This document shows positions 36,748 through 64,000 of a DNA stretch of 64,000 bases, piece by piece; the first letter of the stretch is position 1; every line of letters begins with the position of its first letter. The position numbers and the translations under genes are program-made. Source of the stretch: Ectocarpus siliculosus. Lineage: Eukaryota; Sar; Phaeophyceae; Ectocarpales; Ectocarpaceae. The stretch lies in contig FN648501.1 in the NCBI GenBank assembly GCA_000310025.1, positions 1-64,000 of the forward strand, in the 5' to 3' direction. A model generated the notes under the pieces. That model was not told the origin of the DNA and searched no databases. It saw only the letters and a list, made by a program, of their open reading frames with translations.

Positions 36748-36915
36748 AGTGTACGACCTCCTGCTGCCCCCAACTTTGCACATGGCATTCATCACGTCTT
36801 GACGCATTTGTTGTCGCTCGCTCTAGTCCAAGGCGAGTCCAAGGCTTAGACCTGCCTTTGCCCTCCCAGTGCACCTAAAGTACTTCCGGCAAGTGCTGCA
36901 AGTCCTTTGTGACAG

Positions 36916-37148: not shown

Positions 37149-37448
37149 GTAAGCTCGTTCCGTGGATCTTGTCATCTTCGTAGTTTCGATCTCGGGTATC
37201 ACCAATGAGTCTGAAACAATCAATCTGATCTATGTGATCCCGAACGGGAAGTCTTTAAAAGAGAACCTCTCAAGAGGGTAAAAATTCTGGGAACGAACGA
37301 TGGTGAAAAAACAGCCTGATGATTGCCTCGTACTTTGTGGCTGCAATTTGCACACGATTTCTGCCACTCGGTATATACTGACACGGTTGTCTCAGGGCAT
37401 GATTGGATTTCGACATCGAGGCCACCATTTTTTTTTTTTTCTTGTCAG

Positions 37449-37547
37449 TAGCGTTGATCGTATCCTCTGCCGGACGTGTGACAGGCACGCCCTCATACAT
37501 CCGTGTGCGTGATGATTGTGTTTTGATAAACACTGGAACACACCAAG
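37449..37547 (+). CDS. candidate phase 1-1 exon upstream of the modular gene
   Basis: Preceded by an excellent acceptor (a run of T, then CTTGTCAG) and possibly ended by CCAAG then GTACAT. That would be 99 nt, phase 1 to 1, like every exon of the modular gene that follows. It codes ALIVSSAGRVTGTPSYIRV and ends INTGTHQ. The frame stays open to about 37700, so another donor is possible. It could be an upstream exon of the modular gene or belong to another gene. Confidence 0.35.
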
Positions 37548-37759
37548 GTACATTAGCGCACATGCGTGAATTTGTCGTTGTTATTGGCAAAACAGGCTTG
37601 GTCAAGAGGCCTTCACTTCTCACGGCGATAGTCGCTTACGGCAGAGATCCGGAAATAGCCCACTGTATATGGTTGTTTGTTCATTGTTGCGAAGAATTTG
37701 GGTACGTACTATCTAGCGCCGCCTCGTGTTTGTCGTACTACCCCCCCCCCTTGAAGTCG

Positions 37760-37826
37760 CTCTGTCTCGAAAGGGACGCGTGGTCAATGGTCAAATGACT
37801 ACGGCAAGCAACAAATGAGTACGCCC
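37760..37826 (+). repeat. partial R1-like repeat
   Basis: The stretch GTGGTCAATGGTCAAATGACTACGGCAAGCAACAAATGAGTACGCC resembles the 3' part of the R1 repeat (20.4 kb: AACTGGTTTAACGACCACGG then GAGTACGCC). It has flanking poly-C plus CTTGAAGTCG duplications at 37741 and 37824. Confidence 0.45.
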
Positions 37827-37954
37827 CCCCCCCCTTGAAGTCGATGCGCGCAACGAACCTTCCATAAAACCCTTTCGCAATCTGGTGCAAGATGCGACAA
37901 ACCTGACCTTTCATGTTTCCCACCCGCTGTGTGTGAATGACACTCTTTGTCCAG

Positions 37955-38086
37955 GGTTCTGCTCGATTTCAACGCGGGCTTGTGAAGATTGCTCGGAATG
38001 GTCTTGCGGAAGTGATTACGTGCCGAAACCCGCCGAAGCTGACTATCCGTGCCCCCTAGGCTGCACCGACACGTTCTGTTGCAATG
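37955..38086 (+). CDS. exon A1, divergent Cys module
   Basis: 132 nt, phase 1-1, between TTTGTCCAG and GTAAGA. Residues include CEDCSEWSCGSDYVPKPAEA and CPLGCTDTFCCN. The CC end and the YVP block match the other modules but the N half has extra Cys residues. This is the most diverged copy and the first in the series. Confidence 0.7.
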
Positions 38087-41000
38087 GTAAGAAGTCGCTT
38101 CGCCTGAAAAAAGCACCGTCGTATTAATAGTTTTACTTTGCTTGCCCCCCACTCTCTGTGTGCCTATGATACATCTGATTGGGCCTCGGTACTCTACGGT
38201 TGTGCGTGGTGGCGACATTGATCGCGTTCGGCATAGCATACGATCAAGCGACAGAAAACTGATGCTGCTCAGGTTTTAGCAGCGCTAGGCGCTCCCCTCG
38301 TGAACATCGTTCAGCTTACTGCCGCACGGGTATATGGCCCAAGCCTGTTCGGCATGGTGCTTGCTGCAAAGTGCCTTCGTATCTTGCCGCGCATCCGTCG
38401 CTGCGTTCTTTCGTGCTAACATACATGCGACTCGGCGATTGTGCCATTCTTCACGGCCATCCGCTATCCGCCATCGACATCACTGCGACATCGACCCCCA
38501 TGCAGCTCGCGCGCTGACGTGCGATTCTTACGTGGACGCTTTCGGGAGTACCCTTTGCGACGAGGGGTACGTGCCGATTGATGGTGGGGACACCATCGAG
38601 TGCGAAACGACGTGTGACTCCGCGACGTGCTGCCAAGCAAGTGAGTGACCTTGCGCCGCATTGCGTCGCATTGCTTTGCGTTGCTCCCAACTCGTACGCA
38701 AGCAGCGTGACATTGCCGTTGCTGCCCTAAGCTTGTGTTGTGTTTGAAAGCTCGTTTCGTAAACGTGCTCATGTGTACGGCCGTTCGACGTGTCTTGGTT
38801 TGAGAGCTTGGTCGGTAGTCATCGTGCAGAAGCGGCTGTCTAACAGACGCTGGACACTCAGCTATGACATACTCCTGGCCTTGACCGTGTTGATATCTAT
38901 GATCGTTTCTGGAGTAGATTGTAGTGGTTGACAAGCGGCAATGGTCACAGCGTGCACACATATACTAACGCGTCTACCGATGCAAATATCGACGGAGCTC
39001 AACACGATTTCTGAAAACACACCTTTGCCCTATCGCGGCGCGGGCGAACGCGAACCACGGAATGCTGTATTTCAACGTTCACGCCCGTCCTTTGGCGATC
39101 TCCTGTTTTGCATGTCTCGTGGATTGCCATTTTTGGCAGCCGACACCCCTGCGCCGACGTCTCGGCCGGTCGTGTCAACACCTGCTCCAACTACGGCCTC
39201 ACCTGCGCCACGTGAGGAGGAAATGTTTACGTTGTGCAGGACACTCACGGGTTCTGGCGTGTCCTAAGCTTCGATGGTAGCCGGTGGTATACGTACTGCG
39301 ATTCAACGACTATGCCATTCTTCACGTCAAACATTGTTTTTCTGCCATCCGCTGTCCGCCATCGACATCACTACTGTACGACGTTGGTCTACATGAAGCT
39401 GGCACGCTAACGTGCGAGTCGTACGTGAGGACTTTTGGGGGCAGCTTTTGCGATGAGGGGTCAGAGCCGATATCTGGTGGCGACACCATCGAGTGCGGCA
39501 CGACCTGTAACCCCGAGACGTGCTGCCAAGGAAGTGAGTGGTGTTGCTTCGTGCTTCGTTTTGTTCCCAACTCGTACGCGAACAGCGTGGTACTGCCGTT
39601 GCTGCCCTGGTCTCCAGCTGTGTTTGCCAAACCGTTTCACAAGCGTGCACATTTATGTACGGCTTTCGGCGAATCTTGTTTTCAGGGCTTCGTCAGCACC
39701 TCGTCCACGTTGCAAGTCCTCGGTTGGTCGCCGGTACGTTCATACCTCCAACTACACGTCAACAGAGGAATGACTTGTCGATTATGCTTACACTCGCTCT
39801 CCGCCATCTTTATTTCTTAGGTGTTGTCCTCGTTGAAGTTGGCACGGTGACGTGTGCCTCGTACGTGGATGCCTCCGGGGGCACTCTTTGCGACGAGGGG
39901 TACGTGCCGATCACTGGTGGCAACACCATCGCGTGCGACACGGCGTGTGACGTCGCGACGTGCTGCCAAGCAAGTGAGTGGCGTTGCTTGGCGTTGGTCC
40001 AATCCCAACCCCAGCTTACGAACAACATGGCAATGCTGATACTGCTCTGAGCTGTAAGAGTCGTATATGAACAATCAGTTCGTAAGCATGCCATGAAACA
40101 ACACGCACCGAAACGGACTCAAAGCCCGTCCGCTCGTCCAAACTCCTCCCTACAGGGCCTACTGCGGACCCAACGCCTTCACCGACGACGGCCTCGCCTA
40201 CACCAGGTGAAGGGTGATTATACTATTCTTAGGTATGGAAGGGTGGATCAACGCCTACACGGGGGTGCCGTCATTAACGCCGACTCCTCCAGAAGAGTGC
40301 CATATCCGACTCGTGAAATGTGTTCGGGAGTGTTGATTCCATCCTTTGCCCCAACTCTTTCGCGACAGGGCCTACTGCGGACCCAACGACTTCGCCGACG
40401 ACGGCCTCGCCTACACCAGGTGAAGAATGAAATACTCGATTGGTGTAAGATTGTATCACAGGCTCTAGGGTAAACCCGCAGTTATCTGCACGATTGCGGA
40501 GAGCAGACTGTGCAACAACCAATACGCGATCCATTCGCAGTTCGACAATTGTGCTGCCATACTAGTGGAGGTGTGGTAGGCATGTTTGTGACTCATTCCC
40601 GTCGAAATGAGGCGGACATTTGTTGCATGTCTAGCGCTTTGGGTGTTGCCGATGGATTCATGCACCAACCCCCAATCGAACAGACTGCTAAACCCGGCCC
40701 ACTCCCCAATGCCCATCGCAACAGGGCCTACTACGAACCCAACGCCTTCGCCGACGACCGGTTCGCCTGCACCAGGTGATTTGCAAACGATTTGTGTTAC
40801 AGCGTAGTTGGTGCACATCTGTATCACAGCCTATGCGGGGACCCTGGAAACCATGTGTGTTCACACCACGAGTATGGTGTGCCAATTGAACCAACAGGAC
40901 CCGTGCTCACTCCGACAGCACCGCACGACTTCGATCGGAGGCGTCGTTCAAATTCTCGCGTTGAGCATTCACGTATTGAGCAATCACCCATCTGGGTATG

Positions 41001-44000
41001 CACATCTCTTTTGTCCGTTTGGCAACGCCTGGGCGCGTGGTCGATGATTCAATATTTTTCAAACTCGCACTACCCGACGACAAACTAGCTGTTGACGCTT
41101 GCATGCGCTCTCCGCCATTGACATCGCCTCGCTCTTTCTCCCATATAGCTGGCGTGCTGACGTGCGACTCGTACGTGGAGCCCATCGGTTGGGGCCCTCT
41201 TTGCCAAGAGGGGTCAGAGCGCATACCTGGCGGCGACACCATCGAGTGCGGCACGACGTGTGACGCCGCGACGTGCTGCCAAGCAAGTGAGTGGTCTTGC
41301 TCGACAATGCTTTGCGCTGCTCCCAACTCGTACGCGAACAGCGTGGCATTGCCATTGCTGCCCGAAATCTGCGGTTGTGTTCGCCAAAGCGTTTCACAAG
41401 CGTATACATGTGTACGGCCTTTCGGCGCATCTTGTTTTCAGCGCTTCGTCGGCACCTCGTCCACGTTGCAAGTCCTCGGTTGGTCGCCGTTGGGTTCATA
41501 CCTCCAAGTACACGTCAACAGAGGACGTACTTGTTGTTGATACTTCCATCCGCTCCCCACCATCGACATCACTTCGATGTTGTCCTCCTTGTGTAGTTGG
41601 CACGGTGACGTGTGCCTCGTACGTGGATGCCTCCGGGGGCACTCTTTGCGACGAGGGGTACGTGCCGATCACTGGTGGTAACACCATCGCGTGCGACACG
41701 GCGTGTGACGTCGCGACGTGCTGCCGAGCAAGTGAGTGACGTTGCTTGGCGTTGGTCCAATCCCAACCCCAGCACGCAAACAACATGGCAATGCTGATAC
41801 TGCTCTGAGCTGTAAGAGTCGTATATGAACAATCAGTTCGTAAGCATGCACGCGTGTGCGGCCGTGCGGGGTGTCTTCGCTTGAGAGCTTGGTTGGCAGT
41901 TCACGATGAGGGTGCGGCCATCTGACAGTAGCTGGACGCTCAGACATCACTTTCTGTCGGTGTTGAACACGTTGATATGTCCTCTGTGGTTGGAGGCGTG
42001 GATTGTTGTGCTTGTCTATCTCGGGGAATGGCTACGGATTCGGCATGCATGGCTATTTGGGCGCCTCTACCGATACCGGCATTGACGGCAACCACGACTT
42101 TGGCTGAGAAACAACGTCGCGCGATCGCGGTATGGGCAAACGTCGAATCGCCTGACGGTGTGTTGAAAAGTTAGCACCCGCTCTCTGGTAATCGTACACG
42201 CTTCGTTGTGCGTGTCTCGTGCATGGCCGTTGTTGGCAGCCGATACCCCTACGCCGACGGCCGTGTCAACACCTGCTCCAACTACGGCGTCGCCAACGCC
42301 AGGTGAGGAGCAACTGTTTCTTTTTGAGTACGCGCGCATGTATCAATCAGTGGCGTCGCATTCTTCATATACGGAGGTAGGGTACGTACGCAGTTGAACC
42401 TGTCGTGCTCCCTACCTGTGAAGCCACGGCGCGGGATTCCGATACGTTCATACTTGCCACGGCCTGGATTTCCTCCCGCTCTCAAAACGTTTTCGCGACA
42501 GGGCCTACGACGGACCCAACGCCTTCGCCGGCGACGGCCCCGCCTACACCAGGTGTGCACGCGTGTATGAAAAGTTCTTCAGGAGAGTGTCGAATCACCA
42601 CCGATTACTTCACAAGAGTGCTTATCAGTATTGTGCCGTATAGTGCTCGGTTTGACTAGACTTGACCTTCAGATAGGCGGGACTGCTCCTGTTCATGGTG
42701 GTGGCATGTTCACGTTTGGGCAAGGTGAACAAGAAAACTTCTGTGTCGCGCTATGTGAGGTTACCGCTGTGTTCATCCACCCACAGCCACTGGAACACAC
42801 GCAACTCTCGCCCATTCCCCACACGTGTCCTCAACAGGGCCTACGACGGACCCAACGTCTTCGCCGACAACGGCCTCGCCCATACGAGGTGAAGAGTGTG
42901 CGTTTGAGTTTTGATCGGTGCAACCGAATAGAACAGCCTGAACGCGACCTGTACGAGACCCTGAAAGCGATCAGTGGTGACACCACCAGAATGTCGGGCT
43001 ATTGCACCAATAGGATCCGTGCTCACTCCGAGAGCACTGCACGATTTCGATCGGAGGCATGTTTCGCCTTCACTTTTCCATATTCAGAAATCTCACGTTG
43101 GCAAGCCCTTGGAACTTCCAAACAGACGGTAACGGACGAATGACGCGCCGTTAGCTCTTCTTGTTGCTCTCCGCCATTGACCTCCCTCCGATGTTGGGCC
43201 CCGTGCAGTTGGCACGGTGACGTGCGATTCGTACGTGAACTTTGCCGGGCGTCCCCTTTGCGACGAGGGGTACGTGCCGATTGCTGGTGGCGACACGATC
43301 GAGTGCGACACGGTGTGTGACGTCGCGACTTGCTGCCAAGCATGTGAGTGGCGTTGCTTGGTGTTCGTCCCAACCACAACCACGTCCACAAACAGCCTAA
43401 TGTTACCGTTGCTGCTCAAGTCTGCAGTCGTATTTGAACAACCGGGTCACAAGCATGCACGCGCGTGTGTATCCGTGCGGCGTGTTTTGGTTAGTAAGCA
43501 TGTTCGGCAGTTAATGATGCAGGAACATCCATCTGACAGAGGCTGGACGCCGAGCCATGGCGTTCCGCCGGCCTCGAGCATGTTGATGGCTATATGATCG
43601 TCGCTGGTGTGGATTGTTGTGCTTGCTTGTCTGGGAAACGGCCACACATTCGGCATGGATGGCTTGCTGACGCGGGTATTCTACCAGCATGACGGACCCC
43701 AACACGTCCTCCGAACACAACACTTGCCCGATCGCGGTGTTGGCTAACGCCGAGTCTCCAAACACTGCATTCGAACCTTCACGCCCACTCCCTAGCAATC
43801 GTTCATGCCTATTCGCGCGTCTCGTGCGTCGCCGTGATTGGCAGCCGATACCCCCGCGCCGACGTCTCGGCCGGCCGTGTCAACACCTGCTCCAACCACG
43901 GCCTCCCCTACGCCAGGTGAGGAGCGATTGAGTGTTTTTCAGTATGCGCGTAAGTACCAATCACAGGCGCTTTCACGGGAAGCTCAAACGCCGTCAAAGC

Positions 44001-47000
44001 TAATACAGTGCACGATGGCGGAAACACGATCCATGCTCACTCCGAATTCACCGCACCATTTGGTGGCGTAGCATGTTTGGTATACAGGGGTGAGACACGT
44101 ACACGGTTGAACCCATCATGCTCCCTACCTGTGAAGTCACGACGCAGGGTTCCAATGCGCACGTACCTGTGAAAGCCTTTCAATACCGCCCGCTCCCCAC
44201 AACGATTTCGCGACAGGGCCTACGACCGACCCAACGCCTTCTCCGACGACGGCCTCGCCTACACCAGGTGAAGAATGAAGTACTCGGTTGGTGTGCGAAT
44301 GTATGACAGGCTCTAGGGCACACGTTCCATCGTCGTCATGGGTGCTGAGAGCAGAGTATGGCATGGCATGAACGCGATCCGTGTTCATTTCGACGAAGTT
44401 GTCAGTCCGAATAGTGGGCTTGTGTTAGACAGGTTTGTGACATATGCACGTCAAATCGAGGCGACCGTTTGGTGCGCGTCAAGCCCTTGAGGGTTGCCGA
44501 TGTATTGATGTGCCTACACCGACTGCAACCGACTGTACTGCCGGTCCCCCGCCCCATGCTCATCGCATCAGGGCCCACTGCGGACCCAACGCCTTCGCCG
44601 ACGACCGCGTCGCCTACACCAGGTGAAGAGCGCACTTGTCTGTTTTGTTTGGGGGTGCGAACGTATCGCACGCATTAGGTGGAGCCCGAGCCCGAAGTCG
44701 TAAGCATCGATGCCTGTCGAAGAGCGTGCGATGAGACAAACGCGATCCATGCCTACTTGGAACGTATTATGCCGTTCGTAAGGTAGAGTCGGTTCGTTTG
44801 GATGTTTGTGACCATAGTACGTCAAGCTAAGGTGAACATCAATTGTGCCAAGCGATTGCAGGATGCCGATGTATTTGTTCGGCCACAAGCACCGGAACAT
44901 ACTGTAAGCCCCGCCCGCTCGTCCAAACTCGTCGCTACAGGGCCTACGACGGACCCAACGCCTTCGCCGACGACGGCCTCGCCTACACCAGGTGAAGGGT
45001 GAAATACTCGATTGGTGTACGATTGTATCACAGGTTCTAGGGGAAACACGCAGTTATCTGCACGATTGCGGAGAGCAGACTGTGCAACAACCAATACGCG
45101 CTCCATGCGCAGTTCGACAATTGTGCTTCCATACTAGTGGAGGTGTGGTAGGCATGTTTGTGACTCATTCCCGTCGAAATGAGGCGGGAATTTGCTGCAT
45201 GTCAAGCGCTTTGGGTGTTGCCGATGGATTTATGCACCAAACCCCAATCGAACAGACTGCTAAACCCGGCCCACTCCCCAATGCGCATCGCAACAGGGCC
45301 TACTACAGACCCAACGCCTTCGCCGACGACCGGTTCGCCTGCACCAGGTGTGCGAACGAATGGTGTTACAGCGTAGTTGGTGCACATCTGTATCACAGCC
45401 TATGCGGGGACCCTGGAAACCATGTCTGTTCACACCACAAGTATGGTGTGCCAATTGAACCAACAGGACCCGTGCTCACTCCGACAGCACTGCACGACTT
45501 CGATCGGAGGCGTCGTTCAAATTCTCGCGTTGAGCATTCACGTATTGAGCAATCACCCATCTGGGTATGCCCATCTCTTTTGTCCGTTTGGCAACGCCTG
45601 GGCGCGTGGTCGATGATTCAATATTTTTCAAACTCGCACTACCCGATGAATAACTAGCTGTTGATTCTTGCATGCGCTCTCCGCCATCGACATCGCCTCG
45701 CTCTTTCTCCCATATAGCTGGCGTGCTGACGTGCGACTCGTACGTGGAGCCCATCGGTTGGGGCCCTCTTTGCCAAGAGGGGTCAGAGCGCATACCTGGC
45801 GGCGATACCATCGAGTGCGGCACGACGTGTGACGCCGCGACGTGCTGCCAAGCAAGTGAGTGGTCTTGCTCGACATTGCTTTGCGCTGCTCCCAACTCGT
45901 ACGCGAACAGCGTGGCATTGCCATTGCTGCCCGAAATCTGCGGTTGTGTTCGCCAAAGCGTTTCACAAGCGTATACATGTGTACGGCCTTTCGGCGCATC
46001 TTGTTTTCAGCGCTTCGTCGGCACCTCGTCCACGTTGCAAGTCCTCGGTTGGTCGCCGTTGGGTTCATACCTCCAAGTACACGTCAACAGAGGACTTACT
46101 TGTTGTTGATACTTCCATCCGCTCCCCACCATCGACATCACTTCGATGTTGTCCTCCGTGTGTAGTTGGCACGGTGACGTGTGCCTCGTACGTGGATGCC
46201 TCCGGGGGCACTCTTTGCGACGAGGGGTACGTGCCGATCGCTGGTGGTAACACCATCGCGTGCGACACGGCGTGTGACGTCGCGACGTGCTGCCAAGCAA
46301 GTGAGTGACGTTGCTTGGCGTTGGTCCAATCCGAACCCCAGCACGCAAACAACATGGCAATGCTGATACTGCTATGAGCTGTAAGAGTCGTGTATGAACA
46401 ATGGATTCACAAACATGCACGCGTGTGCGGCCGTGCGGGGTGTCTTCGCTTGAGAGCTTGGTTGACAGTTCACGATGAGGGTGCGGCCATCTGACAGTAG
46501 CTGGACGCTCAGACATCACTTTCTGTCGGTGTTGAACACGTTGATATGTCCTCTGTGGTTGGAGGTGTGGATTGTTGTGCTTGTCTATCTCGGGGAATGA
46601 CGACGGATTCGGCATGGATGAATGTTTGACGCGTCTACCGATACCGACACCGACGGCGACCACGACTTTGGCTGAGAAACAACGTCGCGTGATCGTGGTA
46701 TATTTATGGGCAAACGTCGAACCGCCTGACGCTGTGTTCTAACGTTAGCACCTGCTTTCTGGCAATCGTACACGCTTCGTTGTGCGTGTCTCGTGCATCC
46801 GTGGTTGGCAGCCGATACCCCTGCGCCGACGGCCGTGTCAACACCTGCTCCAACTACGGCCCCCCCTACGCCAGGTGAGGAGCAACTGTTTCTTTTTGAG
46901 TACGCGCGCATGTATCAATCACATCCTTCGGGGGAAGCTCCAACGCCGTCGACGCTGGTCTAGTGTACGAAGGGAAAACACGATCCGGGCTCACTCCGAA

Positions 47001-53000: not shown

Positions 53001-56000
53001 GTGTGGCTCTTGTGACCATTCCCCACCAAATTGAGGCCAACATTTCTTGCATGTCAAGCATTGAGGGTTGCCGATTGATCCATGCGCCCACGCGCAATCC
53101 AACAGACTGTGAACCCCTGCCCGCCCTCCCATATCCCCGCAATAGGACCTACTACAGACCCAACACCTTCGCCGACAACCGGTTCGCCTCCACCAGGTGA
53201 AGTGCGAACGATTGTCTATTTCGGTTGATGCACACGAGGATATTCGTACAGCCTAAGCGAGACGTTCGAGATCATGAAGAAAGCCATCAGTGGCGACACC
53301 ACCAGTATGGGATTCGATATAACCACCAGGATCCATGCTCTCTCCGACAGCGCTGCAGATTTTCGATCGGGAAAAAGGGTTGGTCGTCTTCACACGTTGG
53401 GCATTCACATGTTAGACACGAACGTCTGGAGGTTCAATACCGTCGTCCGTTTCGCAAAAGTCATGGCAGGTTGTCGGTGATGTTTCTGTTCCAAACTACC
53501 CAAAACAAAGAATAGAGTTTCCTGTTGTGTTTCCATGCGCTCTCCGCCAATCATAACGCTTCGATGTCGCTCCCCGTGTAGCTGGCACACAGACGTGCGA
53601 CTCGTTCGTGGACGCCTCCGGGGGCCCTCGATGCCGCGAGGGGTACGTGCCGATTGCTGGTGGCGACACTATTGAGTGCGACACGGCGTGTGACACGGCG
53701 ACGTGCTGCCAAGCAAGTGAGTGGCGTTGGCTCGCGTTGGCCCCAACCACACCTCCCTACACGAATACCCTGGCGCTGTTACGGCCCTATCGTGTTTGAA
53801 CAACCGTTTCACAAGAATGCACATATAAGTGAACGGCCGTGCGGCGCGTCTTGGGATTGTGACATTGGTCGGCATTATTCAACGTTGGGGCGTCCATTTG
53901 ACAGAGGCTGGAGACTCAGTCATCACTTTCTCCCGGCCTTGAGCGTGTTCATGTCGTTGGTGGTGTCGATTGTTGTGCTTGTTTTATCTCCGAAAGGCCA
54001 CACATTTGGCATACATGGCTATGCTGACGCTTCTACTAAAACCAACAATGACGGACCCCAACACGTTCTCCAAAACAAAACCAGTTCCTTATCGCATTGT
54101 GGGGCAGAACGTCGAACCGTCAAATTTTCTGTTTCAGCTTTCATGCCCGCTCTCTGGCAATCGTACACGCGTTTTATGTGCATCTCGTGCATAACCGGGG
54201 CTGGCAGCCGATACTCCTGCGCCGACGGCCGTGTCAACACCTGCTCCAACTACGGCCTCGCCAACGCCAGGTGAAGAGCAAGTGTTCATGTTGTGGATGC
54301 GAGGTGGATACACCTCCCTGTATGACAGCCTACACGGGAAGCTCACGCACCATCAACTCCGGCGTGCCGAGACGATTGTGCGATGGGGAAAACAAGATCC
54401 GTGCTTATGCCAGATGCACTGCGCATTTGGAGGCGTGTCGCCATGTTGATTCGCATAGGTTGAGCACGTACACATGAATCATGTTTAAGCCTAGCTCTCT
54501 ACCTGTGAAGACACGTCGCAAGGTCCGGATACGTTCATGAGTGTATATGTGCTGCCCTTTCCCCGACCAATTCGCGACAGGGCCTACGACGGACCCCACG
54601 CCTTCGCCGAGGACGGCCCCGCCTACGCCAGGTGAAGACTTAAGCAGTTGGTTTCGATTGTACGAACGAGTACCACAGCCTCTCGGGCAAAGCCGCAGTC
54701 ATCGGCACAGCTGCTGAGAGGATAGTGTGCAGCGACATATACTCTGTCCGTGCTCATTTCGAATAATGTGCTCGCCGACTAATAATGGGGGCGTGGTAGG
54801 AGTGTTTGCGACCAATGCGCGTCAAATGGAGGTGTTTGTTTCTGGCGTGTCAAGCGCTTGAGGGTTGTCCATGTATTTATTCGCCCACACCCTAGGCAAC
54901 AGACTGTGAACCCCCGCCCGCCCCCCCATATCCTCGTAATAGGACGTACTACGGACCCAACGCCTTCGCCGACGACCGGTTCGCCTACGCCAGGTGAAGT
55001 GCGGACGATTGTTGACTTCGCTTGGTTGATTGATGTATGAACGTATCATAGCCTCAAATAGAAAACCTTAGTCATTAGCATCGATGATGTCTCGAGAAGA
55101 ATGTGCGATGAGCCAAACATGATCCACGCTTTTTTGGAGGAGAATGTGCCGTCAGATATTGCAGGGTTGTTTGTTTGTATGTTCATGACCATTGCAAGTT
55201 CAGCCAAGGTGAACATATTTTCAGCCAAGCCATTGCAGCATGCCGGTGTATGCATGCGCCGACACCAACTGAATTTGACTGAAACCCCCGCCCATTCACA
55301 AACTGTTTCCTCTATAGGGCCTACTACGAACCCAACGCCTTCGCCGACGACCGCCTCTCCTACACCAGGTGAAGAGCGTACATTTCTGTTTTGGTTGGTG
55401 AACGCAGATAGCACAGCCTGAACGAGACCTACGACACCCTGAAAGCCATGAGTGGTGATACCACGAACTTCGTGTTCACTAGAACCCGTAGGATTCGTCA
55501 TCGCTCTCAGAGCACAGCACGACTTCGACCGGAGGCGATTTTCGTTGTTATCGTTTCGCTTCCAGAACCCACTGCATGATTTGGTGGCGTCGCATTGTTC
55601 ATTTACAAAGGATAGGCAGGTGCACGTGAAACACAGTCGAACCCATCACGTTACCTACCGGTGGAGCCTCGGCGCTGGGTTGCGATACCTTCTTGGTTGA
55701 AAAGGCCGTTCAATTCCGCCCGTTCTCCAAACTATTTCGCGGCAGGTCCTACGACGGACCCCACGCCTTCGCCGACGACGGCCCCGCCTACACCAGGTGA
55801 AGACTTACGCTCTCGGTTTCGATTGGACGCACGAGTAGCACAGTCTCTCGGGTAAAGCCGCAGTGATCGGCACGGCTGCTGAGAGCATAGTGTGCAGCGA
55901 CAAATACGCAGTCCGTGCTCATTGCGACAACTGTGCTGTCCGACTAAGTGGAAGTGTGGCAGGCATGTTTGTGACAATTCCCCACCAAATTGAGGCCAAC

Positions 56001-59000
56001 ATTTCTTGCATGTCAAGAACTTTGAGTGTTGCTGATGGATTCATGCGCCCACATGCAATCCAACAGACTGTGAACCCCCGCCCCCCCCCCCATATCCCCG
56101 CAATAGCACCTACTACAGACCCAACACCTTCGCCGACAACCGGTTCGCCAGCACCAGGTGAAGTGCGAACGATTGTTTAGTTCGGTTGAAGAACACGAGG
56201 ATATTCATACAGCCTGAACGAGACGTTCGAGACCATGAAGAAAGCCATCAGTGGCGACACCACCAGTATGGGGTTCGATATAACCACCAGGATCCATGCT
56301 CTCTCCGACAGCGCTGCGGATGTTTGGTCCGGAAATAGGGTTGGTCGTCGTCACACGTTGGGCATTCATACGTTAGACAAGAACGTCTGAAGGTTCAAGT
56401 CCGTCGTCCGTTTTGCGAAGCCATGGCAGCTTGTCGGTGATGTTTCTGTTCCAAGCAACCCAAAACAAAGACCAGTTTCTTGTTGTGTTTACATACGCTC
56501 TCCGCCAATCATAACGCTTCGATGTCGCTCCCCGTGTAGCTGGCACGCTGACGTGCGACTCGTTCGTGGACGCCTCCGGGGGGCCTCGATGCCGCGAGGG
56601 GTACGTGCCGATTGCTGGTGGCGACACTATTGAGTGCGACACGGCGTGTGACACGGCGACGTGCTGCCAAGCAAGTGAGTGGCGTTGGCTCGCGTTGGCC
56701 CCAACCACACCTCCCTACGCAACCAAGCTGGCGCCGTTACGGCGCTAATCTGCTGTCGTCGTGTTTGAACAACCGTTTCACAAGCATGACATACCAGCAC
56801 GGCCGTGCGGCGCGTCTTGTGATTGTCACGATGATGGGCAATTTACGATGCAGAAACGGCCATCCGACAGAGGCTTGATGCAGAGACATCACTTTCTCCC
56901 GACCTTGAGCATGTTGTTAGTATTGTGCGATTAATGTGTAGGTTTATTGTTTTTCTTTCGAATTGCCTTGATCAATATTTTCTGTGGCCTACGGAGGGAG
57001 ACTTCCCCCGTACCACACGTCCCGCACGGCTCAAAGCCTCCGCGGTATCCTAACGTGTCTCTGCTACTAAACACAAATCTCCCTCCGAATACCTCCAGAC
57101 GGGACGAAACTGTTGTACAGTAGCAGTCTCGGACGATTGAGCCTCCCAATGGTACGCTACCATTCAGAAAACACCCAATTCGAAGTCGTGCGATAACTGC
57201 TTCGGGAGACAACAGTATAACCCGTCGGGTGGTCCGATGTGGTACAATACACTTATTATATTATCAGCTATGTGAAATTTGACCGCGAAACGGAATGGCA
57301 CAGCTCAGCCGTTGGGCTTCGTGCCGCCCCGCCCGCCTAAAAGACCCCAAACCGGAGGACTCAGAGAGGTCCTCCACCAAGAAGCACACCGGCGAGCGCT
57401 ACCTCGGAGAGACCCCAGTCTGTCTCTCGGTGGTGGCGTGCAGTACCGGTTGGGGATGACCAACTGTGGGGCACTACTGTAGGAAGCGCTGAGTGTCGTT
57501 TGCCTTGCCCTTCTTGATCGCCACAGGCCCGCGCATATGTTGGTTTCATGGACTTGCTTGATTCCCTCTTGTATCTTTTGAGGCATTCGCGAAATGATCC
57601 GCCTGGTGCCTGGAATGTCTCACTACAGGGAGAAACATGACGAAAAACACGAGAAAAAAAAGAAAAGGGAGAAGAAAATGACGGGGATACGCTATCGTGC
57701 ATCCGGGCGACCAAATTTCGTGGGCATTCGGACATAGCCTGGACAGGTAGCCATGGGGTCAGGCGACGTGTGCGAGGCATGGTATCGTTTTTTTTGTTTT
57801 TTTTGTTCTGGTGTGGGAGTTCGTGGTGCCACATCGAATTCCTTGGGGCGGTTCAGCTTACGGCGCGGCTCATGATAAACAAACAATGGGACCGAACAGC
57901 ACATGGCTTCATCACGGGAAAGAATACGATGGCTTGACCGCGATCGTCTCTGTTGGTATTACTGAGCGCTCACTTGATTAGCGCGCATGTAGTTCGAACT
58001 CGACGCGAAGCCACGACATGATTGCTAGCTATCGTCCAAATTTCGATGTAGCTAGCTGCTGCCCTTCTGCCGCGTGACTCCAAAGCGGGCTGCATGGTAC
58101 ATATTGTGTCTTTCTCACAACGTGGCCTTTGGGTTCAGTGGACAAGCGTCTATCAAACTCTTGCCGCAGGAGCAGCGAGGCAGCAGAATGAGAACTCCGT
58201 GAGACCTTTCTCTTTTGGGACCCCAGAAAACCGAACCAAGACATCCGAACCAACGCGCCTCCAGGGCGGCACAACAAGAACCCAAATACACACGTAGATC
58301 TGGGAGATGTTCCGAATTCTTCCGTGCACAATAAACTACAGTTTGTTCTTCGACAACAAACTTTCATTTGTTACACTTTACTATCGCGGGAATCGAGGGA
58401 ATCGCCGCAGGGCGGTGTGTACGGATTCGCCCATTCGTCTACCGATGCCAACGCCGACAGACCCCAACACGTTCTCTGAAAAAAAAGTGCGTGATCGCGG
58501 TGTGGGCAAACGCCGAATCGCCCTATACAGCAGTACTACTGTACTTAAATGGTAACGCCTCGTAACATTCACGCCTGCTCACTGGCAATCCTTCACACCT
58601 TTTCGCGCGTCTCGTGCGTCGCCGTGGTTGGCAGCCGATACCCCTGCCCCTACGGCCGTGTCAACACCTGCTCCAACTACGGCCTCGCCTACACCAGGCG
58701 AGGACCAAAAAATTATGTTGTGGTAAAGCGTGCCCGTATCACAGCCTGCACGGGATTGGTAAGCGCCGTTGATGCTGACGTCCCGACGAAGAGGGGTGCG
58801 ATGGGGAAACAAGATCTGTGCTCATTTCGATTTCACTTCGCCATTTGGTGGGGTCGCTTTGTCCATTTTCAGAGGTTGAGTACGAACGCATGAGTTGAAC
58901 CCCTCATATTCCCTACCTGCGAAGCCACGTCGCATGGTTTCGAAACGTTCATGATTGTATCACTCGTACGCACACAGGCACGGAATTGTTGATCCCGTCC

Positions 59001-62000
59001 TATGCCCAAACTTGTTCGCAACAGGGCCTACGATGGACCCCACGCCTTCGCCAACGACGGCCTGGCCTACACCAGGTAAAGAGCGAAGTACTCGGTTTCG
59101 ATTGTGCACGCGAGTATCACAGCCTCTAGAGCAAACCCGCAGTCATTGGCACGGAGGGTCAGAGCAGAGTGCGCAACGACATTAACGTTATTCGTGCTCA
59201 TGGCCACGATTGTGTCGTCCGAGTAGTTGAGCTTTGGTGGGCATGTTTATGACCAATGTGCGGCAAATTGAGGTGATCCCATCTTGTGTGTCAAGCCCAT
59301 GAGAGTCGCCGATGGATTCATTCGCCCACACCCTCCGCAATAGACTGTGAACCCCCGCCCGCTCCTCTATGCTATCGCCACAGGGCCTACTGCGGACCCA
59401 ACGCCTTCGCCGACGACCGGTTCGCCTACACCAGGTGAGCAGCGAACGATCGGTGCTTTGGTTGGTGCCCATCTGTATCACAGCCTGTGCGGGGACCCTA
59501 AAGGGCATCGGTGATGGCAACCTGGGTAGGTGCACCATAGAGTCAACAGGATCCGTGCTCACTCCGACAGCACTGCACGACTTCGATCGGAGGCGTCGTT
59601 TATCGCACACACTGAGCGATCACACATTTGAGCATTGACACGTCTGGGCATGTACATGCCCCCATCCGTTTTGCAAAGCGTTGGCTGTTTGTCGATGGTG
59701 TTATACTTCCTATCTCGCGAATGCCCACGATTAACATGCTGATGATTTTTCATGCAATCGACGCCATCGGCATCGCTTCGATGTTGCTCCCCATGTAGCT
59801 GGTGTGCTGACGTGCGACTCGTACATGGAGGTCGTCGGGGCGGGCCCTCTTTGCCACGAGGGGTACGTGCCGATTGCTGGTGGCGACACCATCGTCTGCG
59901 ACACGACCTGTGACGTCGCGACGTGCTGTCAAGCAAGTAAGTGGCGTTGGCTTGCGTTGGCCCCAACGACAGCTACCGTACGTACGCAAACAGCCTGACG
60001 TCGCCATTACTTGTCATGCCTGCTATGGTATTCGAACAACCGTTCCACCAGCATGCACATGTGTAGGTCCGTGCGGCGTGTCTTGCGTTTGTGAGCTTGG
60101 AGAACCTTGTGCACGATGTTGAGGTGGCAATCTGACAGTAGCTGGACGCCTAGCCATCCCTTCCTCCCGGCCTTGAGCGCGTTGATGGCCCTCCATCGTT
60201 GTTGGTGTGCGTTGTTGTGCTTGTTTATATCGGAAAAGGTCACGCACTCGGCATGCATGGCTATGCTGACGCGTCTAGTGGTACCAACATCGACGGGCTC
60301 CAACACGTTACCTGGTATAGAAGAGTTTCCCCGATCGCGGTATGGGCAAATGTCGAACCACCAAATGCTGTATTTTGACTTTTACGCCCGCTCTCTGGCA
60401 ATCGTGCACGCATGTTGTGTGCATCTCGTGCATCGCTGTGGTTGGCAGTCGACACCCCTGCGCCGACGGCCGTGTCAACACCTGCTCCAACTACGGCCTC
60501 GCCTACCCCAGGTTAGGAGCAAACGTTTCTGTTGTGTATACCCGCGCGCGCACGACAGCCTACACGGCAAGCTCGCATGCCATCGACCCTGCCGTCTCGA
60601 GACGATTGTGCGATGGGATAAGCAAGATTCGTGCTCTTGTCGGATTCACTGCACCATTCGGAGGCGCGTCGCATCGTTGACTCTTAGATGTTGAACACGT
60701 ACCCACGAATCATGTTGGACCCATCGCGTTCCCTACCTATGAAGCCATGGTGCAGGGTTCCGAACACTTGTGCCCACGCACGAATTGCTTATTGATTCCA
60801 CCCGTTCCCCAAATTATTTCGCGACAGGGCCTACAACAGACCCAACGCCTTCACCGACGACGGCCTCGCCTACGCCAGGTGAAGAGCGACCCTTTCCGGC
60901 TTTATGACGGGTGTATAAATGCTGATACAGGAGAGCCGAAGTCATCGGCACGGATGCCGAGACAATAGTGTGTCATAATCGATTCGCTATCCGTGCTCAG
61001 TTTGAAGAGACTCTGCTGCGAGATAGGTGGAGTTGTTTGTTTGTGTGGCCTTGACGAACAGAAGTTACCACGAGGTGAACAACCAAGAGCTATTTACGGT
61101 TGCCGATGTGTTCATGCGCGGAACCACTCTGAAACACACTCAAACACCCTCCCATTACACCAAATGTATCCTCACCAGGGCCTACAACGGATCCAACGCC
61201 TTCACCGATGACGGCCCCGCCTACACCAGGTGAAGAGCGACCCTTTCTGGTTTTGGGTGTGCACGCGTGTATCAACGCCGATACAAGAGAGCCGAAGTCA
61301 TCTGCACCGACTCCTCGACACGAGTGTGCCATACCCGAATCGGACATTGTTAGAAGTTTGAACAGATCGGGTGCCGTCAGATAGGTGCGATTGTTCCTGT
61401 GTATGTTGGTGACGTAGACGTCAACACGAAGCTACCAATCAGACCTTCCGTGTCCAGCTATGTAAGGTTATCGATTCGTTTATCGGCCGACAACCACTGG
61501 AACACACTTGAAACACCGACCCATTCAACGAACCTCCCCTCAACAGGGCCTACTACGGACCCAACGCCTTCGCCGACGACGGCTTCTCCTACACCAGGTG
61601 AACAGCGTATACCTTCTGTTTTCGTTGGTGTACGAATGAATTCCAGGCTCTAGGAGAACACCGAAGTCATTAGCATCGATGCCTTGACAAGAACGTGCAA
61701 TGGACCAAGACGATCCATGCCTATTTGGAAGAGATTGTGCCCTTCGACATGTCGGGTTGTTCGAATCTATGTTTGCGACGATTGCAAGTCAGGCCAAGGT
61801 GAAAATCAATTATTCCATGCCATTGCAGCATGGCGATGATTCCGATCCGCTGTGCCCACTTGAATAGACTAAACCCTCCACCCGCTCATCCACACTCGTC
61901 GCAACAGGGCCTACTCCGGAGCCAACGCCTTCGCCGACCACGGCGTCGCCTACACCAGGTGAAGAGCGCAGCTTTCGATTTACCTTTGCTCAATCCTGTG

Positions 62001-63719
62001 TTAATATCTATGTCTGTACCAGGTCCTCGACATCGCCGTTAGCACACAGTCTTAGAGCAGAGTGTTCCACGAGACAATGGCGCGATCGGTGTTCAGGCGA
62101 GCCGCCATATTGGTGGAGGTGGTCTGTATGTACCTTGGTGGCAAATGCAACGAAATCAGGAAAAACAGAGGGCATGGAGGATTGCCGTGGCTTCATGCGT
62201 CCACTTTGGCAACCTTTGATTGAAATCCCCGCCCTTTCCCCCACACGGCTTCGCGACAGGGCCTACCCCGGGGCCAACGTCTTCGCCGCCGACGGCGTCG
62301 CCTACACCAGGTGAAGAGCGCAGCTTTCGATTTACGTTTGCTCAATCCTGTATTACAGCCTATATCTGTACCAGATCCTCGACATGACCGTTAGCACACA
62401 GTCTTTGAGCAGAGTGTGTCATGAGACAATGGCGCGATCGGTGCTCAGGCGAGCCGTCATATTGGTGGAGGTGGTCTTTATGTACGTTGGTGGCCAAAAC
62501 AACGAAACCAGGGGAAACAGAGGGCATGGAGGATTGCGGGTGGCTTCATGCGTCCACATTGGCAGCCTTTGATTGAAATCCCCGCCCTCTCCCCCACACG
62601 GCTTCGCGACAGGGCCTACTCGAGGGCCAACGCCTTCGCCGACTACGGGCTCGCCTACACCAGGTGAAGAGCGCACCATTCGATTTACGTTGGCTCAATC
62701 CTGTACTACAGCCTGTATCTGTTGGGGATGCTCGAGATCACCGTTAGCACACAGTCTTTGAGCAGAGTGTGCCACGAGACAACGGCACGATCGATGCTCA
62801 GGCGAGCCGTCATATTGGTGGAGGTGATTCATGTCTATATTGGTTGCAGATGCGACGAAATCAGGGAAAACAGAAGGCATGGAGGATTGCGGGTGACTTC
62901 ATGCGTCCACATCGGCAACGTTTGATTGAAATCCCCGCCCTCTCCCCCACACGGCTTCGCGACAGGGCCTACTCCGGGGCCAACGCCTTCGCCGACGACG
63001 GTATCGCCTACACCAGGTGAAGAGCGCAGCTTTCGATTTACCTTTGCTCAATCCTGTGTTAATATCTATGTCTGTACCAGATCCTCGACATCACCGTTAG
63101 CACACAGTCTTTGAGCAGAGAGATCCACGAGACAATGGCGCGATCGGTGTTCAGGCGAGCCGTCATATTGGTGGAGGTGGTCTGTATGTATGTTGGTGGC
63201 CAAACGACGAAATCAGGGAAAACAGAAGGCATGGAGGATTGCGGGTGGCTTCATGCGTCCACATTGGCAACCTTTGATTGAAATCCCCGCCCTCTCCCCC
63301 ACACGGCTTCGCGACAGGGCCTAGTCTGGGGCCAACGCCTTCGCCGACGACGGTGTCGCCTACACCAGGTGAAGAGCGCAGCTTTCGATTTACGTTTGCT
63401 CAATCTTATGTTAATACCATGTCTGTACCAGATCCTCGACATCACCGTTAGCACACAGTCTTTGAGCAAGAGTGTTCCACGAGACAACGGTGCGATCGGT
63501 GCTCAGGCGAGCCGCGATTTTGGTGGGGGTGGTCTGTATGTACGTTGGTGGCCAATCGACAAAACAAGGGAAAACGGAAGGCATGGAGGATGGCCGTGGC
63601 TTCATGCGTCCACATTGGCAACCTTTGATTGAAATCCCCACCCTTTCCCCCACACGGCTTCGCGACAGCGCCTACTCCGGGGCCAACGCCTTCGCCGACG
63701 ACGGCGTCGCCTACACCAG
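37955..63719 (+). CDS. giant modular gene: six-Cys modules joined by Thr/Pro microexon linkers (partial, open at right edge)
   Basis: Sixty exons in a row, all phase 1-1 and all multiples of three, sum to about 4464 nt (1488 residues) over 25.8 kb. Three types occur. Type A is the Cys exon, 132-138 nt, 15 copies, with pattern C-x11/12-C-x14-C-x3-C-x4-CC and conserved CDEGYVPI.GGDTIEC. Type B is a 51-nt microexon, 36 copies, coding GPTTDPTPSPTTASPTP or close variants. Type C is 63 or 72 nt, 9 copies, coding TDTPAPTAVSTPAPTTASPTP-like linkers, always directly after an A exon. Acceptors are mostly ACAG, donors mostly CCAG/GTGAAG (B, C) and CAAGCAA/GTGAGT (A). None of the 60 exons contains a stop. 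The likely role is a secreted extracellular-matrix or wall protein, with disulfide-rich beads on stiff, probably O-glycosylated linkers. The Cys pattern recalls Cys-Ser/Thr repeat modules common in surface proteins of algae and other protists (inference). Start codon, signal peptide and 3' end are not in the exons listed. Confidence 0.85.
38506..38640 (+). CDS. exon A2, Cys module
   Basis: 135 nt, phase 1-1, acceptor CCATGCAG, donor GTGAGT. Reads LTCDSYVDAFGSTLCDEGYV, then the GGDTIEC and CDSATCCQA blocks. All six Cys are present. Confidence 0.85.
39140..39211 (+). CDS. exon C1, Thr/Pro linker (72 nt)
   Basis: Long form with the SRP insertion (DTPAPTSRPVVSTPAP). Its last base is C where all other C exons have G (CCAC then GTGAGG), which makes the junction codon Pro instead of Ala. 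Confidence 0.8.
39399..39533 (+). CDS. exon A3, Cys module
   Basis: 135 nt, phase 1-1. TCESYVRTFGGSFCDEG, then SEPISGGDTIEC and CNPETCCQG. The usual YVPI is replaced by SEPI. Confidence 0.8.
39839..39973 (+). CDS. exon A4, Cys module
   Basis: 135 nt, phase 1-1. TCASYVDASGGTLCDEGYV, then PITGGNTIAC and CDVATCCQA. It has an Ala at the second position instead of Asp, the sub-type later repeated at 41597, 46166 and 50817. Confidence 0.85.
40156..40775 (+). CDS. B microexons 1-3
   Basis: 51-nt exons at 40156-40206 (GPTADPTPSPTTASPTP), 40369-40419 (GPTADPTTSPTTASPTP) and 40725-40775 (GPTTNPTPSPTTGSPAP). The first intron is short (162 nt), the second 305 nt. Confidence 0.85.
41149..41286 (+). CDS. 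exon A5, Cys module (138 nt)
   Basis: One extra residue between the first two Cys (SYVEPIGWGPLCQEG), then SERIPGGDTIEC and CDAATCCQA. It shares this sub-type with 45718 and 50369. Confidence 0.85.
41597..41731 (+). CDS. exon A6, Cys module
   Basis: 135 nt. TCASYVDASGGTLCDEGYV, then GGNTIAC. It ends CCRA where its duplicates have CCQA. The intron from A5 is 310 nt. Confidence 0.85.
42240..42302 (+). CDS. exon C2, linker (63 nt)
   Basis: DTPTPTAVSTPAPTTASPTP in phase 1-1 between TGTTGGCAG and GTGAGG. Confidence 0.85.
42502..42888 (+). CDS. B microexons 4-5
   Basis: 42502-42552 (GPTTDPTPSPATAPPTP, donor GTGTGC) and 42838-42888 (GPTTDPTSSPTTASPIR). The second ends Pro-Ile-Arg, shared only with its duplicate at 47489. 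Confidence 0.85.
43209..43343 (+). CDS. exon A7, Cys module
   Basis: 135 nt. TCDSYVNFAGRPLCDEGYV, then PIAGGDTIEC and CDVATCCQA. The last base is T (GCAT then GTGAGT), so the junction codon to C3 is Ser. Confidence 0.85.
43845..43916 (+). CDS. exon C3, linker (72 nt)
   Basis: Long form DTPAPTSRPAVSTPAP then TTASPTP, duplicated at 48496. Confidence 0.85.
44217..45347 (+). CDS. B microexons 6-9
   Basis: 44217-44267 (GPTTDPTPSPTTASPTP), 44572-44622 (GPTADPTPSPTTASPTP), 44941-44991 (GPTTDPTPSPTTASPTP) and 45297-45347 (GPTTDPTPSPTTGSPAP). Introns are 304-318 nt and visibly paralogous to each other. Confidence 0.88.
45718..45855 (+). CDS. exon A8, Cys module (138 nt)
   Basis: Duplicate of A5, same residues (SYVEPIGWGPLCQEG). 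Confidence 0.87.
46166..46300 (+). CDS. exon A9, Cys module
   Basis: Duplicate of A6 with PIAGGNTIAC and a CCQA end. Confidence 0.87.
46812..46874 (+). CDS. exon C4, linker (63 nt)
   Basis: DTPAPTAVSTPAPTTAPPTP, duplicate of C2. Confidence 0.85.
47171..47539 (+). CDS. B microexons 10-11
   Basis: 47171-47221 (GPTTDPTPSPTTAPPTP, donor GTACGT) and 47489-47539 (GPTTDPTSSPTTASPIR). Confidence 0.85.
47860..47994 (+). CDS. exon A10, Cys module
   Basis: Duplicate of A7 with one replacement (SYVNLAGRPLC instead of SYVNFAGRPLC). Confidence 0.87.
48496..48567 (+). CDS. exon C5, linker (72 nt)
   Basis: Duplicate of C3; one Pro of the second block is Ser (STPASTTASPTP). Confidence 0.85.
48868..49998 (+). 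CDS. B microexons 12-15
   Basis: 48868-48918, 49223-49273, 49592-49642 and 49948-49998, duplicates of the 44217-45347 set at an offset of exactly 4651 bp. The third reads TTAPPTP instead of TTASPTP. Confidence 0.88.
50369..50506 (+). CDS. exon A11, Cys module (138 nt)
   Basis: Third copy of the A5 sub-type (SYVEPIGWGPLCQEG). Confidence 0.87.
50817..50951 (+). CDS. exon A12, Cys module
   Basis: Third copy of the A6 sub-type. It reads CDEGYMPITGGNTIAC, with Met replacing Val. The intron downstream differs from copies 1 and 2 by small insertions. Confidence 0.87.
51457..51519 (+). CDS. exon C6, linker (63 nt)
   Basis: DTPAPTAVSTPSPATASSTP, the most changed of the short C exons. Confidence 0.85.
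51837..53196 (+). CDS. B microexons 16-20
   Basis: 51837-51887, 52192-52242 (GPTVHPTPSPTTASPTP), 52572-52622 (GPTTDPTPSPTTAPPTP), 52791-52841 (same residues) and 53146-53196 (GPTTDPTPSPTTGSPPP). The intron 52623-52790 is only 168 nt and has no in-frame stop, so 52499-52867 is one open frame across two exons; intron retention would keep the protein open. Confidence 0.87.
53582..53716 (+). CDS. exon A13, Cys module
   Basis: 135 nt. TCDSFVDASGGPRCREGYV, then PIAGGDTIEC and CDTATCCQA. Phe replaces the usual Tyr. Near-identical to A14. Confidence 0.87.
54208..54270 (+). CDS. exon C7, linker (63 nt)
   Basis: DTPAPTAVSTPAPTTASPTP with Ser-like TCC only in the wobble-level changes seen by eye; acceptor GCTGGCAG, donor GTGAAG. 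Confidence 0.83.
54581..56157 (+). CDS. B microexons 21-25
   Basis: 54581-54631 (GPTTDPTPSPRTAPPTP), 54943-54993 (GRTTDPTPSPTTGSPTP), 55318-55368 (GPTTNPTPSPTTASPTP), 55746-55796 (GPTTDPTPSPTTAPPTP) and 56107-56157 (APTTDPTPSPTTGSPAP). An open frame from 55863 runs through the last intron into the exon. Confidence 0.86.
56540..56674 (+). CDS. exon A14, Cys module
   Basis: 135 nt, same residues as A13 apart from the segment before the first Cys (GTLTC instead of GTQTC). The flanking introns also match those of A13, showing a ~2.96-kb duplication (53.2-53.9 versus 56.2-56.9 kb). Confidence 0.87.
56925..58385. mobile_element. ~1.46-kb insertion in an A-to-C intron, unidentified
   Basis: The intron after A14 is 1960 nt, against about 490 nt for the equivalent intron after A13. 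The surplus is bounded by sequence that matches other A-to-C introns on both sides (to about 56920 and from about 58390). The insert has no module and no recognised gene; open frames on both strands at 57.28-57.9 kb are short and unsupported. Short inverted similarity (GTAGGTTTATTG near 56940 and CAATAAACTACAG near 58328) could be degraded termini. Class unknown. Confidence 0.5.
58635..58697 (+). CDS. exon C8, linker (63 nt) with GC donor
   Basis: DTPAPTAVSTPAPTTASPTP. The donor is GCGAGG in place of GTGAGG, a standard GC-AG intron variant, in an otherwise normal exon. Confidence 0.8.
59025..59434 (+). CDS. B microexons 26-27
   Basis: 59025-59075 (GPTMDPTPSPTTAWPTP, donor GTAAAG) and 59384-59434 (GPTADPTPSPTTGSPTP, donor GTGAGC). 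Confidence 0.85.
59799..59936 (+). CDS. exon A15, Cys module (138 nt)
   Basis: TCDSYMEVVGAGPLCHEGYV, then PIAGGDTIVC and CDVATCCQA, donor GTAAGT. Intermediate between the 135- and 138-nt sub-types. Confidence 0.85.
60449..60511 (+). CDS. exon C9, linker (63 nt)
   Basis: DTPAPTAVSTPAPTTASPTP. First bases TC instead of CC (acceptor GGTTGGCAG) and a weak GTTAGG donor. Confidence 0.8.
60828..63719 (+). CDS. B microexons 28-36 (run continues past window)
   Basis: 60828-60878, 61179-61229 (PMTAPPTP end), 61547-61597, 61908-61958 (GPTPEPTPSPTTASPTP), 62260-62310 (GPTPGPTSSPPTASPTP), 62613-62663 (GPTRGPTPSPTTGSPTP), 62966-63016 (GPTPGPTPSPTTVSPTP), 63318-63368 (GPSLGPTPSPTTVSPTP) and 63669-63719 (APTPGPTPSPTTASPTP). 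The last six belong to the 352-bp array. Replacements cluster at residues 3-5. Confidence 0.87.
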
Positions 63720-64000
63720 GTGAAGAGCGCAGCTTTCGATTTACGTTTGCTCAATTCTGTGGTACAGCCTGTATCTGTACCAGATCCTCGACATCACCGT
63801 TAGCACACAGTCTCTGAGCAGAGTGTGGCACGCGGTGCTCAGGCGAGCCGTCATATTGGTGGAGGTGATTCATGTATATGTTGGTTGCAGATGCGACGAA
63901 ATCAGGGGAAACAGAGGGCATGGAGGATTGCGGGTGGTTTCATGCGTGCTCATTGGCAACCTTTGATTGAAATCCCCGCCCTTTCCCCCACACGGCTTCG
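61870..64000. repeat. 352-bp exon-intron tandem array
   Basis: B exons start at 61908, 62260, 62613, 62966, 63318 and 63669 (spacing 351-353 bp). The introns between them are near-identical (for example GAAATCCCCGCCCT then CCCCCACACGGCTTCGCGAC before each acceptor and GTTAGCACACAGTCTTTGAG inside each). The window ends 31 bp short of the next expected exon start, so the array is longer than seen. Confidence 0.9.

Follow-up and report, generated by a model that had tools for sequence, protein, structure and literature searches.

Arrays of many short exons in a single phase have described counterparts in brown algae and in animals, and we compare with these an array of 60 exon-like units at positions 37955-63719 (+ strand) of a 64,000-nt stretch of Ectocarpus siliculosus DNA (contig FN648501.1, positions 1 to 64,000; hereafter the window). 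Animal elastin and titin PEVK cassettes consist of many short symmetric exons that give length variants by exon skipping, and their sequences are presumably unrelated to this array. Brown-algal NB-ARC-TPR genes have reportedly been treated by Teng et al. 2023 and Zambounis et al. 2012, and brown-algal chimeric arabinogalactan-protein-like cores, it is said, by Herve et al. 2016. In the accessible part of their description, brown-algal ROCO (LRR-ROC-COR) genes encode each LRR in a 72-bp exon of its own, in phase 2; splice variants are described (Teng et al. 2024, PMC11378527), and a single gene can have as many as 49 LRRs in tandem (PMC11378527). NB-ARC-TPR genes of brown algae, with TPR exons, are cited as alike (PMC12879055, PMC11378527). 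Chimeric arabinogalactan-protein-like cores and WSC wall proteins of brown algae appear in the accessible text of a review (PMC8307928). Metazoan class 1-1 modules are symmetric phase 1-1 exons that encode extracellular modules, and exon shuffling is treated, in the portion of the source available, as restricted to Metazoa (Patthy 2021, PMC8001218).

The array is probably the interior of one gene, with at least 25.8 kb and at least 60 exons, that would encode a secreted chain of beads and linkers and that has grown by duplication of exon units. At the level of sequence, the exons, their phase, coding constraint and the duplication of units and blocks can be regarded as demonstrated.

Layout and frame of the array

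The units comprise 15 Cys-rich units (132-138 nt), 9 long linkers and 36 short linkers, with lengths of 51 nt (36 units), 63 nt (6), 72 nt (3), 132 nt (1), 135 nt (10) and 138 nt (4). All were located by fuzzy search and open-frame scans; in the list that follows, the Cys-rich and 51-nt rows were also recovered by profile sweep, and the 51-nt rows are further backed by alignment with their flanks.

37955-38086, +, exon 1 of the model, Cys-rich, 8 Cys, 132 nt, doubtful six-Cys family member, 5' border ambiguous
38506-38640, +, six-Cys exon, 135 nt
39140-39211, +, long linker exon, 72 nt
39399-39533, +, six-Cys exon, 135 nt, weak acceptor
39839-39973, +, six-Cys exon, 135 nt (or from 39821, 153 nt)
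40156-40206, +, 51-nt linker exon
40369-40419, +, 51-nt linker exon
40725-40775, +, 51-nt linker exon
41149-41286, +, six-Cys exon, 138 nt
41597-41731, +, six-Cys exon, 135 nt
42240-42302, +, long linker exon, 63 nt
42502-42552, +, 51-nt linker exon
42838-42888, +, 51-nt linker exon
43209-43343, +, six-Cys exon, 135 nt
43845-43916, +, long linker exon, 72 nt
44217-44267, +, 51-nt linker exon
44572-44622, +, 51-nt linker exon
44941-44991, +, 51-nt linker exon
45297-45347, +, 51-nt linker exon
45718-45855, +, six-Cys exon, 138 nt
46166-46300, +, six-Cys exon, 135 nt
46812-46874, +, long linker exon, 63 nt
47171-47221, +, 51-nt linker exon
47489-47539, +, 51-nt linker exon
47860-47994, +, six-Cys exon, 135 nt
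48496-48567, +, long linker exon, 72 nt
48868-48918, +, 51-nt linker exon
49223-49273, +, 51-nt linker exon
49592-49642, +, 51-nt linker exon
49948-49998, +, 51-nt linker exon
50369-50506, +, six-Cys exon, 138 nt
50817-50951, +, six-Cys exon, 135 nt
51457-51519, +, long linker exon, 63 nt
51837-51887, +, 51-nt linker exon
52192-52242, +, 51-nt linker exon
52572-52622, +, 51-nt linker exon
52791-52841, +, 51-nt linker exon
53146-53196, +, 51-nt linker exon
53582-53716, +, six-Cys exon, 135 nt
54208-54270, +, long linker exon, 63 nt
54581-54631, +, 51-nt linker exon
54943-54993, +, 51-nt linker exon
55318-55368, +, 51-nt linker exon
55746-55796, +, 51-nt linker exon
56107-56157, +, 51-nt linker exon
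56540-56674, +, six-Cys exon, 135 nt
58635-58697, +, long linker exon, 63 nt, GC donor
59025-59075, +, 51-nt linker exon
59384-59434, +, 51-nt linker exon
59799-59936, +, six-Cys exon, 138 nt
60449-60511, +, long linker exon, 63 nt
60828-60878, +, 51-nt linker exon
61179-61229, +, 51-nt linker exon
61547-61597, +, 51-nt linker exon
61908-61958, +, 51-nt linker exon
62260-62310, +, 51-nt linker exon
62613-62663, +, 51-nt linker exon
62966-63016, +, 51-nt linker exon
63318-63368, +, 51-nt linker exon
63669-63719, +, 51-nt linker exon, last found in window
42350-51889, +, exon+intron block present twice, ~4.65 kb apart (self-alignment)
61899-64000, +, 352-bp tandem repeat to window end, unit of one 51-nt exon and its intron

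With C for Cys-rich unit, L for long linker and s for short linker, the order is CCLCCsssCCLssCLssssCCLssCLssssCCLsssssCLsssssCLssCLsssssssss. Every one of the 60 units is a multiple of three, lies in phase 1 at both borders and is open, the symmetry of class 1-1 modules. An AG acceptor is present in 60/60 units and a GT donor in 59/60, the remaining donor being a GC directly after 58697. Joined, the exons give 4464 nt and a stop-free translation of 1487 residues, and retention of an intron would introduce an in-frame stop in 57 of the 59 introns (median 310 nt, range 162-1960). A six-frame sweep of the whole window, with profiles derived from the very units they recover and with none for the long linkers, returned 15/15 Cys-rich units and 36/36 short linkers, all on the + strand, and no comparable match elsewhere in the window (other matches ≤8.3 bits). 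Because the tandem array runs on to the window end, 60 is a lower bound for the exon count. The G+C content of the window, in 2-kb steps, is 49.5-56.2%.

These results bear on a preliminary description of the locus, which had reported three exon classes over 25.8 kb, each exon divisible by three in length, open and phase 1-1 at its borders, and had counted 36 of 60 exons as 51-nt linkers; both statements hold. Its count of 60 exons agrees with the units located, with the reservations that 60 is a minimum and that, by profile, the first unit falls outside the family. The six-Cys class of 135/138 nt fits the 14 regular units and not unit 1 (8 Cys, 132 nt). The proposal that any exon can be added or skipped without loss of frame is nearly right, a stop arising at the junction in 4 of 1770 forward exon-to-exon joins.

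Coding constraint and the working state of the gene

The case for coding, as judged here, comes from substitution and indel patterns and not from openness; with 34/36 short linkers open in all three frames, openness is weak proof for this class. Across the 36 aligned 51-nt units, identity at codon positions 1, 2 and 3 is 0.906, 0.912 and 0.742, and in their 60-nt flanks intron identity is 0.513 upstream and 0.562 downstream, with AG and GT at 1.0. The ratio of non-synonymous to synonymous change (pN/pS) in the phase-1 frame is 0.38 for the 51-nt, 0.53 for the 135-nt and 0.49 for the 138-nt set, against 1.77/1.48, 0.98/0.94 and 2.88/0.70, respectively, in the other two frames. Distinct changes among the 51-nt units are synonymous in 24/48 cases, compared with 18.9 expected under base matching (P = 0.009) or 19.8 under CpG matching (P = 0.013). 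Five aligned duplicate pairs, which overlap in part and are not independent and to that extent lend the coding reading less weight, contain 67 indels per 9371 intron sites and 1 per 2181 exon sites; this sole exon indel is 9 nt long and in frame, where 15.6 were expected (P = 3e-6), and in three of these pairs exons have clearly diverged less than introns. Intron lengths modulo three leave remainders of 0, 1 and 2 in 14, 26 and 19 cases, that is, they carry no multiple-of-three constraint, and pyrimidine content before acceptors is 65% versus a background of 52%. A tandem DNA repeat without coding function, open by accident, would accord with the units open in all three frames and with the part of the array that is a plain 352-bp tandem repeat. 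This reading is very improbable, being contradicted by the codon-position pattern, the scarcity of exon indels, the invariant Cys residues and the invariant splice sites beside diverged introns; chance or a non-coding repeat was rejected on the codon-position, indel and splice-site tests.

Several results weigh against a single working gene for a secreted chain. The distinct-change test on the 135-nt modules is not significant (23/68 synonymous versus 19.2 expected, P = 0.14), and 16 recently duplicated exon pairs, with 9 synonymous and 14 non-synonymous differences, indicate weak constraint. Divergent sites in the terminal 352-bp array number 25/255 in exons versus 169/1499 in introns (P = 0.59), and in a 2-kb duplicate pair the difference between exons (13/438) and introns (69/1555) is not significant (P = 0.22). 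Branch-point-like motifs, found at 24/60 acceptors versus a 33% background, show little excess. AlphaFold2 returned no confident fold for the module (mean pLDDT 62.7; 47.9 when unit 1 was omitted). By eye, none of the 20 most hydrophobic starts at 33001-37954 is a convincing signal peptide, and the 60-exon model is without a stop, membrane anchor or glycosylphosphatidylinositol (GPI) signal, so the argument for secretion is drawn from composition.

Part of this evidence would suit an array that has decayed in part or that is split into several tandem genes, with modules of genuine origin but no single working transcript across the 25.8 kb today: the terminal array lacks detectable exon constraint, synonymous changes are few among the youngest differences, and both array ends are unsettled. 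To these can be added the single GC donor, a ~1.5-kb insertion in intron 56675-58634 and the weak-looking acceptors of exons 39399 and 39839, which read GAAG (for the latter exon, an alternative in-frame AG would move the start to 39821). We nevertheless consider decay or subdivision unlikely, given that the joined 60 exons are stop-free and all multiples of three (hidden start or terminal exons in introns were not searched for) and that AG has been kept in 60/60 and GT in 59/60 units. Most likely, the locus is a working or recently working gene for a secreted bead/linker wall glycoprotein.

Unit 1 (37955-38086) is the weak point of the count of 60. It scores -4.1 bits against the profile of the other 14 Cys-rich units, a score equalled by 500/2000 full shuffles and by 1501/2000 shuffles with Cys fixed. 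Its tail spacing, C-x14-C-x3-C-x4-CC, is that of the other modules and was reached by 33/200000 shuffles, and the unit may be a distant or N-terminal version of the six-Cys module. Upstream of unit 1 its frame stays open as far as 37819, and exon 1 is possibly longer than 37955-38086 suggests; by eye, 37819-37954 in this frame contains an additional Cys-containing stretch and two N-glycosylation-type sites. Farther upstream, the nested starts at 35818, 35827 and 35839 are the only three of the 20 with a consensus-like phase-1 donor, after 35986. No match reaching the curated cut-off was found when 17 upstream open frames were compared with Pfam.

Growth of the array and its predicted product

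Duplication is apparent at two scales. Blocks 42350-47223 and 47017-51889, ~4.65 kb apart, are 93.4% identical, the 2-kb pair is 95.3% identical, and other duplicates among the 30 longest matches are 67% to 91% identical; towards its 3' end the array consists of single linker units repeated in tandem every 352 bp. Growth proceeded by duplication of exon+intron units, both single 51-nt linker units (~350 bp) and multi-kb blocks, most likely through unequal exchange; with every exon symmetric and in phase 1, the frame survives any exchange of this kind. The two linker types appear to be related: the short-linker search also caught 5/9 long linkers, with 14-16 mismatches in 55, and by eye the 3' halves of the two agree. 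Nearly all of the array may perhaps derive from two or three ancestral exons. The uniform phase of 60 exons, to which the preliminary description gave too much weight, thus follows from the duplication of few ancestral exons and not from 60 independent coincidences, and is both a consequence and a condition of duplication. Of the exon-shuffled architecture also proposed there, the frame-preserving modular array stands; only within-array duplication was observed, and the profile sweep found the module nowhere else in the window. In the terminal array (61890-64000), exon divergence proceeds at about the intron rate, from which the units would be either very young or relaxed. The insertion in intron 56675-58634 spans 56916-58430 and is absent from three related introns compared; it has no direct repeats, one short palindrome only and no second copy in the window.

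The 14 regular Cys-rich units share the pattern C-x11/12-C-x14-C-x3-C-x4-CC, and the six Cys are invariant in 14/14 of them and in 15/15 with unit 1 aligned. Linker composition (765 residues, split junction codons excluded) is 89.5% P/A/S/T, with 36.5% P, 32.0% T, 11.8% S, 9.3% A and no Lys, and includes 92 TP, 71 SP and 29 AP pairs, which supports the Cys-bead/Thr-Pro-linker chain suggested earlier. P/A/S/T-rich stretches are common targets of O-glycosylation, and those with AP/SP/TP pairs define arabinogalactan-protein cores. The product would consist of small disulfide-rich beads spaced by extended, probably O-glycosylated Thr/Pro/Ser/Ala linkers and would, once secreted, reach the cell surface or wall; there the beads could bind or cross-link and the linkers would set the spacing.

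Comparisons of the module with sequence collections gave no credible relative. Pfam returned one match only for 15 modules (a phage repressor at E = 0.28) and no LRR; for 14 modules, NCBIfam gave three families (best E = 0.013, single member), none credible, and PHROGs no match. The only match among PDB sequences was a cytochrome (E = 0.27), and Foldseek with the low-confidence module model gave 0 matches. Searching viral and bacterial contigs with the module alignment yielded 118 and 107 pattern-matching stretches, respectively, of which 0 were confirmed by tblastn. The six-Cys module is thus unmatched in Pfam, NCBIfam, PHROGs, PDB and the viral and bacterial contigs, eukaryote collections lying outside the search. 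A looser Cys-spacing pattern, chosen for an apparent resemblance in other algae, picked out 6 viral loci, with an in-frame stop inside the match in 6/6, and 12 bacterial loci, with an in-frame stop in 7/12 and a best fragment of 6.5 bits against the module profile; both sets were taken as chance.

Another reading is a recognition gene, whose Cys modules would be joined in varying combinations by alternative splicing or recombination and would bind foreign surfaces, along the lines suggested for ROCO and NB-ARC-TPR genes of brown algae. In its favour, the array has the in-phase, one-repeat-per-exon build and the exon duplication of ROCO LRR exons, for which splice variants are described. By analogy with those genes the idea is conceivable, but we think it improbable: about half of the model (51% of residues) is near-uniform linker, and the six-Cys modules, with a pN/pS of ~0.5 averaged over sites, are on average not diversifying.

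Elsewhere in the window, four long + open frames lie in a row at 31466-34811 (158, 172, 255 and 315 aa), which we take to resemble a transposon-type gene cluster; their best Pfam match, a PHD-finger at E = 0.006, is below the cut-off. Tandem repeats occur at 2683-3165 (unit of 57 bp, or 171 bp; the 57-bp unit is present 8.5 times, and two + frames are open) and at 30747-31003 (55/110 bp, with short poly-C stretches). No RNA family reached its gathering score in the window.

Comparison with known systems

The preliminary description knew of no such system in brown algae. This holds for the module and linkers, which do not appear in the accessible descriptions of the ROCO and, as cited, TPR genes; the architecture itself is described there. 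As far as those descriptions go, ROCO genes resemble the array in their numerous short exons, similar to one another, symmetric, all in a single phase and each with one repeat. They differ in that the repeats are the LRRs of a GTPase, and the available part of the description mentions no Cys module or separate linker exons (PMC11378527). The ROCO layout of 72-bp phase-2 LRR exons with ROC-COR was not found, the exons here being 51-138 nt and in phase 1, although ROC-COR could lie outside the window. NB-ARC-TPR genes differ, from what is accessible of their description, in their TPR repeats and in being candidate immune receptors. The linkers have the P/A/S/T and AP/SP/TP composition of arabinogalactan-protein cores and so recall the chimeric proteins of brown algae, to the extent that the accessible review text covers these; the modules do not match profiles of WSC or other Pfam Cys-rich domains. 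A limited search of the open-licence literature turned up no description of an arabinogalactan-protein with this module or exon layout and, by titles and abstract openings, none of a gene of this kind.

With metazoan class 1-1 modules, as the accessible source presents them, the array shares symmetric phase 1-1 exons; the domains there are other ones, and in the present case duplication is observed solely inside a single array. It is possible, if held only tentatively, that class 1-1 extracellular modules arose here independently, outside animals: a new six-Cys domain and its glycan linkers would each occupy a symmetric exon of their own, and exon-unit copy number and exon skipping would tune bead number and spacing of a wall fibre separately, giving length variants between individuals. 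The general build of the array has precedents in animals and in immune-type genes of algae, and the module itself is unmatched so far. If the reading is true, the array would be a specific candidate whose build leaves room for variation in length. Two questions raised in the accessible part of the 2021 review are why exon shuffling should be confined to Metazoa and why modules of class 1-1 predominate there (PMC8001218); a clear class 1-1 Cys-module array outside animals, if true, would be a separate test of the association between phase 1 and extracellular modules.
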